A program made the translations under genes and the position numbers. From NCBI GenBank assembly GCA_030154385.1, contig JASKJZ010000049.1, positions 1-10,650 on the forward strand: a stretch of 10,650 nucleotides of DNA. Direction: 5' to 3'. Positions within the stretch are counted from its first letter, which is position 1. Every line of letters begins with the position of its first letter. The stretch is from Clostridiales bacterium (GTDB lineage Bacteria; Bacillota_A; Clostridia; Lachnospirales; Lachnospiraceae). Positions 2,909 through 9,128 of this stretch are shown in pieces. The notes beneath the pieces were generated by a model. That model searched no databases and was not told the DNA's origin. It saw only the letters and a list, made by a program, of their open reading frames with translations.

Positions 2909-4951
2909 ATGAAGAAAAATATTGTGATTGTAGGTGCTGGATATTCTGGTATCTTGACTGCAAAGAAAATTGCGAAGCGATTAAAAAAAGAAGAAGTCAG
3001 TGTTACAATTATTGATAAAAATCCTTTTCACACGATGTTAACGGAGCTCCATGAGGTAGCTGCGAACCGTGTGGAAGAGGATAGCATTAAGATTAGCTTA
3101 AAAAAAGTATTTGCAGGAAGAAATGTGAACGTGGTGATGGACACAATCACTTCCATTGATTATGAAAAAAAAGAAGTGACAGGCGAACTTTCCGCCTATG
3201 CTTACGATTATTTAATATTGGCGGCTGGCTCGAAACCTATGTTTTATGGAATACCCGGAGCTAAAGAACATGCCTTTAAGCTTTGGTCGTATGAAGATGC
3301 CGTGTTACTAAAGGAGCGTATTGTGGAGTGCTTTCGTTTGGCGGCAACGGAAACAAATGCTCAAAAACGAAAAGAGCTTTTGACCTTTTATGTTGCAGGA
3401 GCTGGCTTTACTGGAATCGAAATGATTGGGGAGCTTGCTGAATATGTTCCAATTCTTTGCGAACAGTTTGAAATTGAGCGAAAAGAAGTTAGGTTATTTA
3501 ACGTCGATGGGCTGAGTCGCCCAATACCTAACCTTCCAGAGAAGCTGTCTGCTAAAGTCGTAAGGCGTCTTGAAAAAATGGGAGTCACTTTACTGCTCAA
3601 CACAATGGTGACTTCAATTGGTGAAAATTTTATTGAATTAAAAAAAGACGATCAAATTATACATGAGGAAGCTGGTACGATCATTTGGGCAGCAGGTATT
3701 GAGGGCAGTGATATTACCATGCAAGCCGGTGCTTCCCTAGAGACAAAGCGAGGCGGACGGATTGAGGTGGATTCTTATCTTCGTTCGACCAAACAAGAGG
3801 ATGTCTATGTAATCGGTGACAATATGTACTATGTTCCGGAGGGAGAGAAGCAGGCGGTTCCTCAAATGGTAGAAAACTGTGAACAAAGTGCAGAAACGGT
3901 GGCACATAATATCGTAGCAGCGGTTACGGGACAGAAACAAAGGAAAGAATATAAGCCTGCCTTCCATGGCGTTATGGTAAGCATTGGCGGAAGATATGGA
4001 GTTGCCTATGTTGGACTTCCGGGACATTTCTTCTCTCTCCCATCATTTTTGGCAATGTTTGCAAAGCACTTTATTAATATCATCTATTTTATTCAAGTGC
4101 TAGGTTGGAATAAGGTTTTTCATTATATGAAGCATGAGTTTTTTACAATTCGCAACCAAAGAAGCTTCGTAGGAGGACATTTTTCCAACCGTACGCCTAG
4201 CTTTTTACTGGTACCTGTTCGTGTCTGGCTTGGTGCTGTCTGGTTGTTTGAAGGAATTATGAAAGTTATAGAGGGATGGTTTGAAAAACCAATGCTTACT
4301 GGCTTTTTTGGTGGTGCGAATAGCTGGTACGAAAGTATTCTAAATACGTTGAATACTGCAACAACAACTGCGGTGGATGCAGTATCTTCCGCCACAACAG
4401 CAGCAGAAGGAGCGGCACAGGGGGCAGCGGGTGCAGCCGACGCGGTATCCTCTGCAACAGGAGCAGCGACTGGTGGAGCAGAAGCAGCGGTACAGGCAGT
4501 AGGGCATGTTTTGTTAAATTTTGATTTCCTTGGTTTAATCAAAGTGATTTTTGTATCTGGAAAGGATTTGGCTGCCTCAACGCTTAGTGACTATGCGTTT
4601 AAGCTTGATATTCCTGCCATGAATTGGTTTTTAAATAAATTCATTCTTCCAAATGACAATGTGCAAATAGCGATGCAGATTTTTATTGTGGTTGCGGAAA
4701 TATTAATTGGACTTGCCTTAATCGGCGGCTTATTTACCAGTCCGGCAGCTTTCTTTTCACTCATACTCCAATTTATGTTCGTTTGCACAACGGGACTTTA
4801 TCTTGGAACATTTTGGATGATTTTTGCAGGAATTGCAGTACTCATTGGAGCAGGTAGAACGCTTGGACTTGACTATTATGCTATGCCAGTTCTAAAGAAG
4901 TGGTGGAAGCGGTTACCATTCATTAGAAAGTTGTATATCTATCATGATTAA
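2909..4951 (+). CDS. ndh2: Type II NADH dehydrogenase fused to a DoxX-like membrane domain (extracellular electron transfer Ndh2)
   Basis: This 680-residue membrane flavoprotein should oxidise cytosolic NADH and reduce a (demethyl)menaquinone. Residues 1 to about 370 are the NDH-2 module: an FAD Rossmann motif GAGYSG (9-14), DKNPFHTML, a second NADH-binding GAGFTG (164-169), and a GD motif (303-304) followed by PQMVENCEQ near the quinone site. A hydrophobic, probably monotopic stretch follows (378-398). Then come four DoxX-like membrane helices at about 431-450, 586-608, 613-634 and 635-649. The loop between the first two is long (about 451-585) and, by the positive-inside rule with a Lys/Arg-rich C terminus, external. 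It contains an Ala/Ser/Thr-rich segment with two DAVSSAT motifs. I prefer ATG at 2909 because GGAG at 2899-2902 is 6 nt upstream; TTG 2891 or ATG 2897 would add six or four residues. It is the first gene of the operon and overlaps hepT by 8 nt. Confidence 0.88.
   Translation: MKKNIVIVGAGYSGILTAKKIAKRLKKEEVSVTIIDKNPFHTMLTELHEVAANRVEEDSIKISLKKVFAGRNVNVVMDTITSIDYEKKEVTGELSAYAYDYLILAAGSKPMFYGIPGAKEHAFKLWSYEDAVLLKERIVECFRLAATETNAQKRKELLTFYVAGAGFTGIEMIGELAEYVPILCEQFEIERKEVRLFNVDGLSRPIPNLPEKLSAKVVRRLEKMGVTLLLNTMVTSIGENFIELKKDDQIIHEEAGTIIWAAGIEGSDITMQAGASLETKRGGRIEVDSYLRSTKQEDVYVIGDNMYYVPEGEKQAVPQMVENCEQSAETVAHNIVAAVTGQKQRKEYKPAFHGVMVSIGGRYGVAYVGLPGHFFSLPSFLAMFAKHFINIIYFIQVLGWNKVFHYMKHEFFTIRNQRSFVGGHFSNRTPSFLLVPVRVWLGAVWLFEGIMKVIEGWFEKPMLTGFFGGANSWYESILNTLNTATTTAVDAVSSATTAAEGAAQGAAGAADAVSSATGAATGGAEAAVQAVGHVLLNFDFLGLIKVIFVSGKDLAASTLSDYAFKLDIPAMNWFLNKFILPNDNVQIAMQIFIVVAEILIGLALIGGLFTSPAAFFSLILQFMFVCTTGLYLGTFWMIFAGIAVLIGAGRTLGLDYYAMPVLKKWWKRLPFIRKLYIYHD
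4376..4459 (+). repeat. Duplicated D-A-V-S-S-A-T motif in the Ndh2 external loop (candidate flavinylation sites)
   Basis: The seven residues DAVSSAT are encoded at 4376-4396 (residues 490-496) and again at 4439-4459 (residues 511-517), 21 residues apart in an Ala-rich, low-complexity segment. Five of the seven codons differ between copies (for example GAT/GAC, TCT/TCC, GCC/GCA) and all differences are synonymous, so the peptide rather than the DNA seems conserved. The motif fits the ApbE target consensus Dxx(S/T)(G/S)A(T/S). FMN attachment at T496 and T517 is inference. Confidence 0.5.
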
Positions 4952-5918
4952 AAATACAAATATGGATAAAAATAGAGAGATAACAAGCTATGAGGAGGGA
5001 CTTGCACTTGTAAAAGTGGAGGTAGAGCAGGCACTGCTTCGATCCCCCCGATTAATTCGCGAGTATTTGACACATCTTGCTGCTTCACAAGGAAAGTACA
5101 TTCGTGCTGTTTCTGTGATATCCTGTGCGCAAAAACCAGATGGCTGTATCCCTGGCGATGCTGTTTATGTGGCGGCAGCCATAGAAATTATCCATTTGGC
5201 TTCCTTGGTACACGATGATGTTATGGATGATTCCAGTCTTCGCAGAGGAAATATGACCTTACAAAAAAAATATGGAAAGCGGACGGCGGTCATATGCGGA
5301 GATTATTTGCTTAGTATGGCTCTTCGCATGGTATCGGAGGCGGCAAAAAATCATAAAGATATGGATTTTACAATGCCAGATTATATTAGTAGGCTCTGCC
5401 TTGGTGAGCTGGAACAGCACATCAACAATGATAACCCTGCTTTGTCCGTTTATCGTTATCTAAAAATCATATCGGGAAAAACAGCGGCATTGTTTGAAGC
5501 TTCCTTTTATACAGGAGCGCTTCTTTCAGGAGTTGAGCAAAAGGAAGCAAATTATTATCGAAAGATTGGGTTCTGTGCCGGTATGATCTTTCAGTTGACG
5601 GATGATTGTATGGATTTTGAAGCAACCTTGGAAGAGGCAAATAAACCAATTCAAACTGATTTTGAAAATGGTGTGATTACCCTGCCGCTAATTCACGCAT
5701 TTCAAAAAACAGAAGGGCTTAAAAAAAAGGCGCAGGAACACAAACTATCCCGAGTGGATATTAACGAGGCAGTTAAAAAGTCGGGTGGTCTAGATTTTAC
5801 CAGAATGGTTGCCTCAAGGTATTACGAAAAGGCACTGCGTTGTATGGAAGATATGACGCTTACAGCAGAAAAGAAGGAGCGTATTACCGTTATTTTGACA
5901 AAAGCAATGCGGCGATAG
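4944..5918 (+). CDS. hepT: Polyprenyl (heptaprenyl-type) diphosphate synthase
   Basis: This 324-residue, all-alpha trans-prenyltransferase adds isopentenyl units to make the long-chain polyprenyl diphosphate used as a quinone tail. The first Asp-rich motif is VHDDVMDD (89-96, DDxxD = D91, D92, D95) and the second is QLTDDCMD (217-224). The GGKRxRP motif near the N terminus is degenerate (QGKYIRA, 49-55). Tail length cannot be read reliably from the sequence. The chosen ATG overlaps the end of ndh2 by 8 nt and has only a weak upstream purine run, so translational coupling is likely. ATG 4962 is an alternative but has no ribosome binding site either. The next gene, dmkA, would use its product. 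It corresponds to hepT of the Listeria electron-transfer locus, which supports the specific name. Confidence 0.85.
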   Translation: MIKNTNMDKNREITSYEEGLALVKVEVEQALLRSPRLIREYLTHLAASQGKYIRAVSVISCAQKPDGCIPGDAVYVAAAIEIIHLASLVHDDVMDDSSLRRGNMTLQKKYGKRTAVICGDYLLSMALRMVSEAAKNHKDMDFTMPDYISRLCLGELEQHINNDNPALSVYRYLKIISGKTAALFEASFYTGALLSGVEQKEANYYRKIGFCAGMIFQLTDDCMDFEATLEEANKPIQTDFENGVITLPLIHAFQKTEGLKKKAQEHKLSRVDINEAVKKSGGLDFTRMVASRYYEKALRCMEDMTLTAEKKERITVILTKAMRR

Positions 5919-5931
5919 GAGGGGCAATCGT

Positions 5932-6837
5932 TTGATTCTAAGATTTTTAGATTATGTCGAGATAAAAACAAAAATAACAAGTACCTTTACCTTTTTGCTT
6001 ACGCTGTTATTTTTACTGTATCAAGGACGAACACTTGCATGGAAAGAGACGATTGTCTTTTTTATGGCTATGTTTTTGTTTGATTTGACGACGACGGCAA
6101 TCAATAACTATATTGATTCAAAGGACAATGGACAAATTCTTCCATTTGAACGGAAGCGAGCACGATTTCTTATATATGGTCTTTTTGCCGTAAGTACAGG
6201 GCTTGGTTTATATCTGGCCTATGAAACAGATTTGGTTGTCTTAGTAGTGGGTGGACTTTGCTTTTTCTGCGGTGTTTTTTACACCTATGGGCCAATTCCA
6301 ATCTCCAGACAGCCACTGGGAGAAGTGTTTTCTGGTTTCTTTTATGGCGCTATGATACCTTTTTTGCTGGCCTACATCAATTCACCAGAGGGCACGTATC
6401 TAAGCTATCATCTAAGCGTAGAATCGATATCGCTGGAGCTTAAGGTTCTTTCAATTGGTACTTTGCTGCTTCTTTGTGTGACGCCTTTTTGTGTAACAGC
6501 AAACATTATGTTAGCAAACAATATCTGCGATTTGGAAAAAGATATTACGGTGAAACGCTACACACTTCCTTACTACATAGGTGAATATGCGCTGCCTCTT
6601 TTTGCGGGACTTTATTATATAACCTATTTTGCAAGCATTCTAATGGTTGTATTTCGGATTTTGCCCCCGATATATCTGGTTTCTTTGCTATCAATGATTC
6701 CGGTGCAAAAAAATATTCATACATTTTATCAAAAACAAATGAAAGAAGAGACTTTTGTGTGCTCCATTCAAAACTTTATTTTGATTATGGGAGGTAACAT
6801 ATTGGCTCTGGTACTTTGTTTATTCTTCCAATTCTAA
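5932..6837 (+). CDS. dmkA: UbiA-family prenyltransferase, likely DHNA polyprenyltransferase making demethylmenaquinone
   Basis: This 301-residue integral membrane enzyme should join a polyprenyl diphosphate to 1,4-dihydroxy-2-naphthoate to give demethylmenaquinone. It has about eight or nine hydrophobic helices and both metal/diphosphate motifs: NNYIDSKD (58-65) and NNICDLEKD (196-204). The segment YTYGPIPISRQPLGEVFSGF (118-137) resembles the YxxGPxPIxxxxLGE block of MenA enzymes. The start is TTG at 5932, supported by AGGAGG (5917-5922) 9 nt upstream and overlapping the hepT stop codon. Its place directly after a polyprenyl synthase, with no methyltransferase gene beside it, points to the dedicated demethylmenaquinone branch known from Listeria DmkA. 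The DHNA precursor must be made elsewhere or taken up. Confidence 0.85.
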   Translation: MILRFLDYVEIKTKITSTFTFLLTLLFLLYQGRTLAWKETIVFFMAMFLFDLTTTAINNYIDSKDNGQILPFERKRARFLIYGLFAVSTGLGLYLAYETDLVVLVVGGLCFFCGVFYTYGPIPISRQPLGEVFSGFFYGAMIPFLLAYINSPEGTYLSYHLSVESISLELKVLSIGTLLLLCVTPFCVTANIMLANNICDLEKDITVKRYTLPYYIGEYALPLFAGLYYITYFASILMVVFRILPPIYLVSLLSMIPVQKNIHTFYQKQMKEETFVCSIQNFILIMGGNILALVLCLFFQF

Positions 6838-6866
6838 CGAGTTGGATAGCAATAAAATAATAACAG

Positions 6867-6881
6867 GCCGCCATAGGTGGC
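6867..6881 (+). other. Short GC-rich hairpin just upstream of the pplA ribosome binding site
   Basis: GCCGCC (6867-6872) pairs with GGTGGC (6876-6881), including one G-U pair, around a 3-nt loop. It ends 3 nt before the AGGAGG (6885-6890) of pplA. There is no T-run, so it is not a terminator. A 5' stabiliser or processing boundary for a separate pplA transcript is possible. Confidence 0.45.
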
Positions 6882-6896
6882 AGTAGGAGGTTTTAT

Positions 6897-7985
6897 ATGA
6901 AAAAAATAATAGCTTTATTCCTTGGCGCAATGCTTAGTGCGTCGGTGCTTGCTGGATGCGGTGCTGGAAATGATGCAAAGGATACTGCAGATAATCAAGC
7001 AACACCAGCACCAACTGAGAGTGCTGCAACATCAGACGAAGGCACAACGGATGTATCTGGAGCTTTAAAAACGGGTATTGCGGTAACAACTTCGGTAGCA
7101 GACTCCACAAGTGCCGCAGATGAAGATGGAGTAGCACAGGTTTATTCTACCATCGTAGCAGTCTTAGTAGATGGTAATGGAACCATCGTCGATTGTAAAA
7201 TTGATGCTGCACAAACAAAGATTAACTTTTCCAAAGAAGGAAAAATTACATCTGATTTGAATTCACCTATCCAGTCAAAGCAGGAAATTGGAGCAGCATA
7301 TGGTATGGCAGCTAAATCTGGTATTGGAAAAGAATGGAATGAGCAGGCTAGTGCATTTGCCGCTTATGTGGTAGGAAAAACAGCAGATGAAGTAAAAGGA
7401 ATTGCGGTGAATGAAGAAGGAATTGCAACGGATGCAGATTTGACTTCATCGGTAACGATCCACATTGGTGATTTTATGGCAACGGTTGAAAAGGCAGTAG
7501 CAAGTGCAAAAGAATTGGGAGCCAATGCAGGCGATAAGCTAGGTATGGCAGTTAATACCGATATTTCTGGTTCAAAAGATGCAAGTGCAGAGGGCGAAGG
7601 ACTTGCACAGGCATATTCTTACTATTCTGCAGTTACAACCAATGCAGATGGAGCTATCACAAGCTGTATCGTGGATGCGTCTCAGGGTTCGGTAAACTTT
7701 GACACAACAGGAACCATTACAACTGATTTGACGGCAGCACAGCTTACCAAGCAGGAGTTAAAGGATGCTTATGGTATGAAGGCGAAGTCGGAAATTGGAA
7801 AAGAATGGTATGAGCAAGCAGATGCATTTTCTGCTTATGTAACGGGAAAAACAGCCGATGAAGTAAAAGGAATTGCTGTTTCGGAAGAAGGCAAAGCAAA
7901 AGATGCAGACCTGATTAGCTCAGTTACGGTTCACATCGCACCATTTATTGGAGTTGTAGAAAAAGCAGTTGCAAGTGTACAATAA
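6897..7985 (+). CDS. pplA: PplA-like two-module flavin lipoprotein for extracellular electron transfer
   Basis: This 362-residue exported lipoprotein has a basic N terminus (MKK), a hydrophobic signal and lipobox VLAGC, with Cys21 as the lipidation site. A flexible Ala/Thr/Asp-rich tether follows (22-57). Two homologous modules (60-204 and 216-361) come next, 157 residues apart over most of their length. Each carries YG(M)xAKSxIGKEWxEQAxAF, a GKTADEVKGIAV block, and near its end the motif DLTSSVT (181-187) or DLISSVT (338-344). These fit the ApbE acceptor pattern Dxx(S/T)(G/S)A(T/S) with Val for Ala, making T187 and T344 likely FMN attachment sites. Listeria PplA is a lipoprotein flavinylated on two domains, and this gene sits beside fmnB, so the role as outer electron carrier to iron or other acceptors is well supported. 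AGGAGG lies 6 nt before the ATG. Each module also has one Cys (100, 257). Confidence 0.87.
   Translation: MKKIIALFLGAMLSASVLAGCGAGNDAKDTADNQATPAPTESAATSDEGTTDVSGALKTGIAVTTSVADSTSAADEDGVAQVYSTIVAVLVDGNGTIVDCKIDAAQTKINFSKEGKITSDLNSPIQSKQEIGAAYGMAAKSGIGKEWNEQASAFAAYVVGKTADEVKGIAVNEEGIATDADLTSSVTIHIGDFMATVEKAVASAKELGANAGDKLGMAVNTDISGSKDASAEGEGLAQAYSYYSAVTTNADGAITSCIVDASQGSVNFDTTGTITTDLTAAQLTKQELKDAYGMKAKSEIGKEWYEQADAFSAYVTGKTADEVKGIAVSEEGKAKDADLISSVTVHIAPFIGVVEKAVASVQ
7074..7979 (+). repeat. Tandem duplication of the FMN-carrier module inside pplA
   Basis: Module 1 is encoded at 7074-7508 and module 2 at 7542-7979. The best-conserved DNA is GGAAAAACAGC-GATGAAGTAAAAGGAATTGC at 7374 and 7845 onward, a period of 471 bp or exactly 157 codons. 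The C-terminal half (GKEW to VEKAVAS) is much better conserved than the N-terminal half. This indicates an old internal duplication with constraint on the region holding the acceptor threonines (7437-7457 and 7908-7928). Confidence 0.85.
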
Positions 7986-8022
7986 ATGTGCAATACTAGG
8001 TATTGTGACAAATAAATGAATG

Positions 8023-8050
8023 AAATGGGGATGGAAGCATCCCCATTTTT
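8023..8050 (+). terminator. Intrinsic terminator or attenuator between pplA and fmnB
   Basis: ATGGGGATG-type left arm (8023-8033) pairs with CATCCCCATTT (8038-8048) in a perfect stem of about 11 bp with a 4-nt loop, and the T-run continues to 8050. No strong promoter is visible before fmnB, which starts 20 bp later, so fmnB probably depends on read-through. This would keep the catalyst FmnB scarcer than its substrate PplA. Confidence 0.85.
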
Positions 8051-8069
8051 GTATGTGAGGAAGTAACCA

Positions 8070-9128
8070 ATGAAAAAAGTAATGGCAGTCGTCCTAATAG
8101 CAGTATTGCTCATCAATTTAAACGCTTGCACAAGCAAAAAGGAAACGCGATATGAAGCTAGCTTTCTGGAGTTATTTGATACAGTCACCACGATAGTCGG
8201 TTATGCGAAGGACGAAGCAGAATTTAAAGAAAAGACACAGATGATTTATGATCAATTAATGGAATATCATAAGCTCTACGATATTTATCATGATTATGAG
8301 GGAATCAACAATATTAAGACCATTAATGACAATGCAGGAAAAGAACCAGTCAAAGTTGATCAAAAGATCATTAATCTTCTTTTGTTTTCCAAAAGCGTTT
8401 ACGAAAAGACAGAGGGCAACACCAATGTGGCCTTTGGTGCCGTTCTTTCCATTTGGCATGCGTACCGTACCGCTGGAATTGATGACCCAGAGCATGCCAA
8501 GCTGCCGCCTATGGAAGAATTAAAGGAAGCGGCGAAGCACACGAGTATAGAGGATGTCATCATTGATGAAGCAGCTTCTACGGTGTATTTAAAGGATGCT
8601 AAGATGAGCCTGGATGTGGGAGCAATCGCGAAGGGCTACGCGACTGAGATGGTGAGCCGCTATGCCATTTCTCAGGGCTTTACCAATGGGATGCTCTCAG
8701 TAGGGGGCAACGTACGAACCATTGGCCATAAGCTTTCTGGTGAAGGCGAAGAAATTCCATGGAGTGTTGGTATTCAAAATCCTGGATTGGATGACAAGGA
8801 CGAAGCATTATTTGTACTAAATTTAGAAGGATATTCGCTGGTGACCAGTGGTGTGTATGAACGGTATTATACCGTCGAGGGCAAAAAGTATCATCACATC
8901 ATTAATACCCACACCCTTATGCCGCAAAATAACTATCTATCCGTTTCCATTATTAGTAAGGATTCTGGGCTGGCTGACGGTCTTTCAACAGCAATCTTTG
9001 ACCTGTCGCTAGTGGAGGGACAAAAACTAATTGAGAGCATGCCAGATACCGAAGCATTATGGGTGCTGTCGGATGGAGAGATGGCCTATAGTGATGGCTT
9101 TATGGCTTTAGTTAAAAAAAGCAATTGA
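8070..9128 (+). CDS. fmnB: ApbE-family FAD:protein FMN transferase lipoprotein
   Basis: This 352-residue extracellular lipoprotein should transfer FMN from FAD to Thr or Ser of target proteins in a Mg2+-dependent reaction. The signal peptide ends in lipobox LNAC, with Cys20 lipidated. ApbE landmarks follow in order: FFDTV-like LELFDTVTTIVGY (33-44), LDVGAIAKGYATE (181-193), SVGGNV (210-215), VTSGVYERYY (258-267), YHHIINTHT (274-282), and ADGLSTAIF (302-310) where most family members read ADALSTA. The length fits complete ApbE proteins. GAGGA at 8056-8060 is the ribosome binding site. Its neighbour pplA has two candidate acceptor motifs and ndh2 has two more, so both are plausible substrates. 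Its stop codon lies inside the -35 of the next promoter. The family is certain and the FmnB role is inferred from context. Confidence 0.92.
   Translation: MKKVMAVVLIAVLLINLNACTSKKETRYEASFLELFDTVTTIVGYAKDEAEFKEKTQMIYDQLMEYHKLYDIYHDYEGINNIKTINDNAGKEPVKVDQKIINLLLFSKSVYEKTEGNTNVAFGAVLSIWHAYRTAGIDDPEHAKLPPMEELKEAAKHTSIEDVIIDEAASTVYLKDAKMSLDVGAIAKGYATEMVSRYAISQGFTNGMLSVGGNVRTIGHKLSGEGEEIPWSVGIQNPGLDDKDEALFVLNLEGYSLVTSGVYERYYTVEGKKYHHIINTHTLMPQNNYLSVSIISKDSGLADGLSTAIFDLSLVEGQKLIESMPDTEALWVLSDGEMAYSDGFMALVKKSN

Follow-up and report, generated by a model that had tools for sequence, protein, structure and literature searches.

Ndh2, a type II NADH dehydrogenase (NDH-2) with a C-terminal membrane-spanning extension, was encoded in the window (the whole 10,650-nucleotide stretch analysed here, contig JASKJZ010000049.1 of the Clostridiales bacterium assembly GCA_030154385.1), and it was predicted to be itself a substrate of ApbE/FmnB, the secreted FAD:protein flavin mononucleotide (FMN) transferase of the same operon. 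The probability of this reading, in which the FMN adduct is deduced from the protein sequence, was put at roughly 0.77. Judged by gene content, the window carried the genes of a Gram-positive extracellular electron transfer (EET) operon, namely ndh2, pps, ubiA, a pplA-like gene, and apbE, all on the + strand (Table 1). Four features pointed to Ndh2 as a substrate: (i) two copies of DAVSSAT lay in one loop of the protein and followed the pattern D-x-x-[S/T]-[small]-A-[S/T], with Ser instead of Gly at position 5; (ii) this loop was predicted to be extracytosolic; (iii) apbE was located in the same gene cluster; and (iv) the site was conserved among Ndh2 relatives.

According to the proposed mechanism, FMN would be attached via a phosphoester to the Thr that ends each DAVSSAT (T496 and T517), both sites lying in a flexible extracytosolic loop. 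Electrons would pass from NADH to FAD at the cytosolic face, then to demethylmenaquinone and on to the loop FMN, which would hand them to PplA, free flavin, or an external acceptor, with a single polypeptide providing both the cytosolic entry site and the external exit site.

The DAVSSAT sites and the loop of Ndh2

The two DAVSSAT copies were found where the original prediction had placed them, in the loop that joins membrane helix 1 to membrane helix 2 (residue numbers counted from ATG 2909), and five of their seven codons differed, every difference being synonymous, as it had also claimed. Hereafter, 'motif' denotes D..[ST][GSA]A[ST], and '[GS] form' denotes the version in which position 5 is Gly or Ser. 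When the 85-residue loop segment was shuffled 100,000 times, one [GS] form arose in 0.5% of the shuffles and two arose in none; no [GS] word was present in the seven further window genes scanned.

Ndh2 was assigned to NDH-2 by its PF07992 match (E 9e-38) plus a fold match to the Caldalkalibacillus NDH-2 chain (TM-score 0.95, of target), and its best sequence matches in PDB were NDH-2 structures. The AlphaFold2 model of Ndh2 had a mean predicted local distance difference test score (pLDDT) of 81, with residues 483-530 (4355-4498) disordered at pLDDT <50. The loop was predicted to lie outside, because a cytosolic NADH domain followed by four crossings would put the K/R-rich C-terminus (6 K/R in 30 residues) inside; the external placement claimed originally thus held for the model helices and charge distribution, and the opposite outcome, a cytosolic loop, did not occur. 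The helices had also been called DoxX-like: the four-helix membrane part was recovered in the model, but the DoxX assignment was weak, with the C-terminal part matching MauE (E 0.017) and DoxX (E 0.045) below the Pfam cut-offs and with precomputed tags of distant relatives reading DoxD in 11/120 and DoxX in 1/120. Structure comparison found no solved fold resembling the C-terminal model. FMN_bind (PF04205) gave no match in Ndh2 at E 0.001, and none was listed for the C-terminal part up to E 10.

Conservation and selection at the site

The sequence comparison was applied to several sets of Ndh2 relatives. Among the 120 close relatives listed (window protein included), 97 contained the [GS] form (52 once, 41 twice, and 4 three times), all inside the loop, and 119 contained the motif when Ala was allowed at position 5. 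At 80 genome loci, 51 Ndh2 proteins had the [GS] form and 69 the motif; the remaining + strand frames at these loci, counted from 200 aa upward, held 7 [GS] words in 198,097 residues, compared with 66 in the 13,578 residues of Ndh2 C-terminal parts. Alignment of 77 proteins displayed loops varying in length and sequence, with a majority consensus of the variable part that extended barely beyond DA.S.AT, ADAVSSATGA. Sixty-five representatives sharing <75% identity outside the loop were drawn from 258 proteins; 42 of their loops carried the [GS] form and 53 the motif, none of the 65 carried it outside the loop, and shuffling of the loops yielded means of 0.22 and 0.45, respectively. Judged from these sequences, the motif is neither a product of chance nor confined to the window protein.

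The Ndh2 membrane part was further used as the query in a survey of two genome samples selected independently of the motif. Matches came from 74 of the 341 genomes sampled in the Lachnotalea class and from 10 of the 344 sampled in the phylum to which a genome labelled Erysipelothrix belongs. Ninety-three frames of at least 480 aa were counted (shorter ones, L143 and L221 being named, were dropped, and L137, L175, and L219 contributed none), and the motif was present in 55 of them (the [GS] form in 35, a position-5 Ala in 20), never outside the loop region. Copy number ranged from zero to five per protein, and the site usually occurred once in a motif-bearing protein (55 proteins held 65 words); by comparison of these loops, the duplicated window motif is an expanded form of a site more general than originally claimed. 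Five motifs, the maximum among the counted sets, were present in the loop of the L134 Ndh2 frame (8862-). Locus L124 encoded two membrane-spanning Ndh2 proteins (6834-9110 and 14039-16111, +), with DVTTGAT and DALSGAT (Gly at position 5 in each), flanking one apbE.

A distant branch with short loops (query L177) was represented by 119 of the 120 listed proteins, the 366-aa fragment P0352 being dropped. The motif positions were occupied by D in 116, [ST] in 116, [GS] in 112, A in 118, and [ST] in 118, and the complete [GS] form was found in 108/119, while the two x positions and the residues preceding Asp varied and the loop was not Ala-rich. This branch is, at the level of sequence, the strongest single result for a conserved site; loss of the motif in orthologues, the outcome that could have overturned the original prediction, did not occur, as the motif was kept even in these short loops. 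In three members of the branch, P0287, P0324, and P0333, the usual site held one additional motif copy, and these proteins are perhaps intermediates on the way to the loops with several motifs seen in the window's branch.

The same branch bore on a further possibility, namely that the Ser/Thr residues of the loop are O-glycosylated or otherwise modified, or that the site binds a partner, with a coincidental likeness to the ApbE motif. In Gram-positive proteins, extracytosolic loops rich in Ser/Thr can carry O-glycans (general knowledge), but the constraint in short loops followed the ApbE pattern (Asp-1 in 116/119 and Ala-6 in 118/119, with varied x-x), and this explanation was considered very improbable.

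Selection was assessed by gapped alignment of 118 disjoint pairs whose identity outside the loop was 70-93%; such alignment may itself favour motif-to-motif pairing. In longer loops, the motif D was kept at 0.78-0.82, A at 0.86-0.89, and the last S/T at 0.74-0.77, compared with 0.39-0.44 for D, 0.56-0.57 for A, and 0.27-0.31 for T among like residues in the 20-residue flanks of the same pairs. Codon counts over 98 overlapping pairs gave, per codon, (i) 0.21 non-synonymous and 0.46 synonymous changes at the motif key positions, (ii) 0.55 and 0.24 at the two x positions, and (iii) 0.35 and 0.37 at other A/S/T/D/G loop codons; these pairs were non-independent and some were perhaps out of register, and the direction agreed with that of the gapped pair test.

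These comparisons were weighed against the explanation that the loop is a mere Ala/Ser/Thr-rich cell-wall spacer, in which DAVSSAT-like words arose by low-complexity repeat expansion and stay unmodified. Such a spacer would suit an aligned loop window ranging from 55 to 171 residues across 172 representatives, the many Ala-rich and repeat-like loops, the disorder of the modelled loop, and a position 5 that is mostly other than the published Gly. It would not suit the excess of 42/65 observed over 0.22 in shuffled loops, the short-loop branch, which lacked a low-complexity segment yet displayed one near-invariant motif, or motif positions that changed less than like residues nearby, and it was accordingly rated improbable.

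Position 5, partner proteins, and the electron route

The published ApbE consensus is D-x-x-[S/T]-G-A-[S/T] (PMC12052999; PMC10339131; published accounts are represented throughout by excerpts). In one substrate, Gly-to-Ala replacement at position 5 retained about half of flavinylation; according to the same review, Asp-to-Ala replacement has minor effects only, and a seven-residue tag suffices, with termini giving a better yield than surface loops (PMC12052999). The '(G/S)' originally written at position 5 was broader than this consensus, so that for Ndh2 as a flavinylated protein the loop side and the conservation stood, while the Ser fell outside the published pattern. The Gly form did occur in Ndh2: it was found in 12/120 close relatives, 13/80 loci, 17/119 short-loop proteins, and 11/93 survey frames, and its presence in 11/65 representative loops exceeded chance (0 outside the loop and 0.12 in shuffles).

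Several observations weighed against flavinylation of Ndh2. As for position 5, both window motifs had Ser instead of the published Gly, and the Ndh2 representatives mostly had Ser or Ala, leaving the Gly form to the 11 of 65 given above; the published motif accounts searched, as excerpted, stated no Ser at position 5 as a measured ApbE site; and 20 FMN_bind regions from such genomes contained 11 words, 9 with Gly and 2 with Ser, while 10 of the 20 had no word. As for conservation, position 5 was kept at only 0.44-0.46 in the gapped pairs and the first x at 0.71-0.74, near the value for the last S/T; ungapped equal-length loop pairs, taken with the lowest identity first, displayed no excess conservation of the motif, a test that was set aside because indels throw the loops out of register. 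As for distribution, 38/93 survey frames lacked the motif (19 kept the [ST][GS]A[ST] core, 12 only D....A[ST], and 7 neither); Turicibacter-type Ndh2 mostly had DALGAAS (91/120), with the motif in 18/120, near-identical proteins; Listeria and Enterococcus gilvus Ndh2 kept TSGAS/TTGAS with Asp absent; and the branch of L126, L128, and L129 had no site and a different, Cys-containing loop. As for partners and precedent, 21/63 PplA-like proteins of related operons had no motif-like word, and the Listeria accounts (PMC9973259 among these), in the excerpts available, named only PplA and FrdA as flavinylated. In L126, L128, and L129 (frames 4836+, 6839+, and 7216+), two Cys were conserved in the three proteins (YC.LNEFP...GLVC), possibly forming a disulfide or other redox site.

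The remaining PplA-like proteins of related operons (42/63) had at least one motif-like word, and 57 of 65 words ended in SSVT. Since SSVT prevailed in these proteins and 2/11 words of FMN_bind regions had Ser, the ApbE of the operon probably accepts Ser at position 5. One FMN_bind region (L242, of genome G653) contained DTVSGAT and DTVSSAT together, a hint that ApbE may accept Ser there. Given that the published accounts searched stated no Ser at position 5 and that Gly predominated in FMN_bind words, confidence in Ndh2 as an ApbE substrate was lowered from 0.82 to the 0.77 given above.

The window ApbE had its best PDB match in 7esa (FAD:protein FMN transferase, E 9e-37), and it should work outside the cell, because its N-terminus contained a lipobox-like LNAC (read by eye). 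ApbE was found in 72/74 genomes matching the Ndh2 membrane part versus 178/267 without a match (Lachnotalea-class sample; Fisher p 4e-9, kinship uncorrected), and in 10/10 matching genomes of the second survey sample. At eight loci (L162, L165, L167, L168, L170, L177, L179, and L180), ndh2 and apbE were divergent neighbours with no PplA-like protein seen, and their Ndh2 proteins contained the motif in 6/8 and the core in 2/8. More broadly, 19 Ndh2 frames had apbE and no pplA detected in the locus stretch, where phmmer (E 1e-10) matched neither the window PplA-like protein nor the Turicibacter-type one. Short PplA-like proteins may escape this search, and L124 had an unassigned 195-aa lipoprotein beside apbE. 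Of these 19 frames, 13 had the motif, 5 the core, and 1 none. For the loci with no pplA detected, no FMN_bind lay in the stretch among the matches listed for the 11 of 18 genomes searched. Where apbE was present and pplA undetected, Ndh2 was, from its sequence, the best candidate substrate.

The window PplA-like protein matched no Pfam family at E 0.001, and the name PplA for this product rests on synteny and resemblance. Val replaced Ala in its near-motifs; the PplA-like protein encoded at the Turicibacter-type locus contained DTISGVT and DAISGVT, and one of the two SGAT sites in Listeria PplA, a protein reported to be flavinylated at two sites (PMC9973259), was EVVSGAT.

Two readings concerned what the loop flavin would do. 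A broader reading holds that membrane-spanning NDH-2s form a widespread self-wired class: NADH would be oxidised inside, quinone would react at the enzyme's own membrane domain, an external loop FMN would be the step from quinone to acceptors, PplA would be optional, motif copy number (one to five) would tune the output, and ApbE would accept Ser or Ala at position 5. The position-5 results lowered this reading from an even chance to slightly under one. Alternatively, the loop might be flavinylated with its flavin off the main electron route, as a store, a redox sensor, or an ApbE/PplA docking feature, a variant compatible with flavinylation of Ndh2 as such. A motif number of none to five and a flexible loop would be as consistent with a tether as with a relay, but the site lay on the enzyme feeding the route and electron export dependent on Ndh and independent of PplA has been published; neither point amounts to proof, and this off-route variant was considered rather unlikely.

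If flavinylation of Ndh2 is real, the loop FMN could fill an acknowledged gap in Gram-positive EET. An unknown oxidoreductase or route has been suggested for PplA-independent iron reduction in Lactiplantibacillus plantarum (PMC9888254), Lactococcus without pplA still yields current (PMC8837199), and in accounts of electron export needing Ndh but not PplA the step past quinone was left open (PMC9888254, PMC8837199, PMC9864754). An external FMN borne by Ndh2 could explain this export, could explain why FAD export matters where PplA does not, and would add a family of ApbE substrates. The link to L. plantarum, Lactococcus, and Enterococcus faecalis is weaker than that for Clostridia, because the Ndh2 proteins compared from outside that class in this respect, those of E. 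gilvus and Listeria, lacked the motif Asp.

Gene neighbourhood and comparison with known systems

Table 1. Coordinates of ndh2, its predicted protein features, and the downstream operon genes in the window
Feature	Position	Strand	Details
ndh2, type II NADH dehydrogenase with C-terminal membrane-spanning extension	2909..4951	+	680 aa from ATG 2909; Pyr_redox_2 E 9e-38
Membrane helix 1, residues 434-454	4208..4270	+	AlphaFold2 model helix
Helix 1-helix 2 loop, residues 455-582, predicted extracytosolic	4271..4654	+	AlphaFold2 model; charge distribution
Flavinylation-like motif 1, DAVSSAT, residues 490-496, predicted FMN acceptor T496	4376..4396	+	GAT GCA GTA TCT TCC GCC ACA
Flavinylation-like motif 2, DAVSSAT, residues 511-517, predicted FMN acceptor T517	4439..4459	+	GAC GCG GTA TCC TCT GCA ACA
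Membrane helices 2-4, residues 583-606, 610-626, and 636-647, weakly MauE/DoxX/DoxD-like	4655..4849	+	AlphaFold2 model; Pfam
Polyprenyl diphosphate synthase for quinone side chain, DmkB-like	4944..5918	+	PF00348 E 7.5e-58
UbiA/MenA-type prenyltransferase, DmkA-like	5932..6837	+	PF01040 E 4e-18
pplA-like lipoprotein gene	6897..7985	+	near-motifs DLTSSVT (7437-7457) and DLISSVT (7908-7928)
apbE/fmnB, FAD:protein FMN transferase, presumed modifying enzyme	8070..9128	+	PF02424 E 4e-65

The program placed the ndh2 start at TTG 2891, which lies in frame and six residues ahead of ATG 2909. Among the close Ndh2 relatives with a name were those of the Lachnospiraceae Konateibacter (75%), Lachnotalea (76%), and Galacturonibacter (77%, over 70% of the query). 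Models for dihydroxynaphthoate (DHNA) polyprenyltransferase matched the 5932..6837 product below their cut-offs. An Nramp-family (PF01566) transporter gene (1152-2420) was located upstream of ndh2 and was itself preceded by a gene of the dihydrodipicolinate synthase (DHDPS) family. Antisense to the Ndh2 loop, there was a 139-aa open frame (4123-4542, - strand), Ala/Pro-rich and probably a by-product of the loop Ala codons. Among the loci collected, L226 and L227 were chromosome-like sequence filed as plasmid, namely NZ_LR134400.1 (Listeria 'plasmid 3', carrying genes for ribosomal proteins) and NZ_CP154629.1 (a 2.6-Mb Acetoanaerobium 'plasmid').

The window was compared with the locus for flavin-based EET in Listeria, Enterococcus, and lactic acid bacteria (Ndh2/Ndh3, DmkA, DmkB, FmnB, PplA, EetA, and EetB). 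The two shared an overlapping gene set, EetA/EetB not being identified among the window genes, but the window Ndh2 carried the motif twice, while Listeria and E. gilvus Ndh2 contained only TSGAS/TTGAS. A survey published in eLife in 2021 took as its EET marker an NADH dehydrogenase containing a membrane helix and, in the portion available, did not name this enzyme as a substrate (PMC8238504).

ApbE substrates outside FMN_bind include DUF2271, DUF3570, Flavodoxin_4, and FMN_red proteins (PMC8238504; PMC11334425), and those of FMN_red are flavinylated at motifs on an unstructured C-terminal extension (PMC11334425). Like Ndh2, these non-FMN_bind substrates have the motif in an extracytosolic protein whose gene is near apbE; the DUF2271/DUF3570 motif [S/T]GA[S/T] (PMC8238504), however, has Gly where Ndh2 mostly has Ser/Ala, and none of the four families is described as an NADH dehydrogenase in the excerpted accounts. 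From the sequence comparison, the Ndh2s are probably a new family of ApbE substrates.

Na+-NQR and RNF resemble the proposed Ndh2 in that they transfer electrons and bear, outside the membrane, FMN attached by ApbE (PMC8238504), but they are multi-subunit ion pumps with FMN_bind, while Ndh2 is a single polypeptide of NDH-2 fold without an FMN_bind match. Canonical NDH-2 of Caldalkalibacillus and Staphylococcus shared the NADH/FAD domain with Ndh2 (TM-score 0.95; 32% and 30% identity), whereas their solved chains, of ~400 residues, had neither the membrane-spanning extension nor the loop. The original prediction had stated that no flavinylated NDH-2 was known to be described, and full-text literature searches, whose coverage did not extend to Light 2018/2019 or preprints, agreed in that none was recognised. 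The comparison suggests a known enzyme bearing a known modification, in a combination that, as far as the literature searched, appears to be new for an NDH-2.

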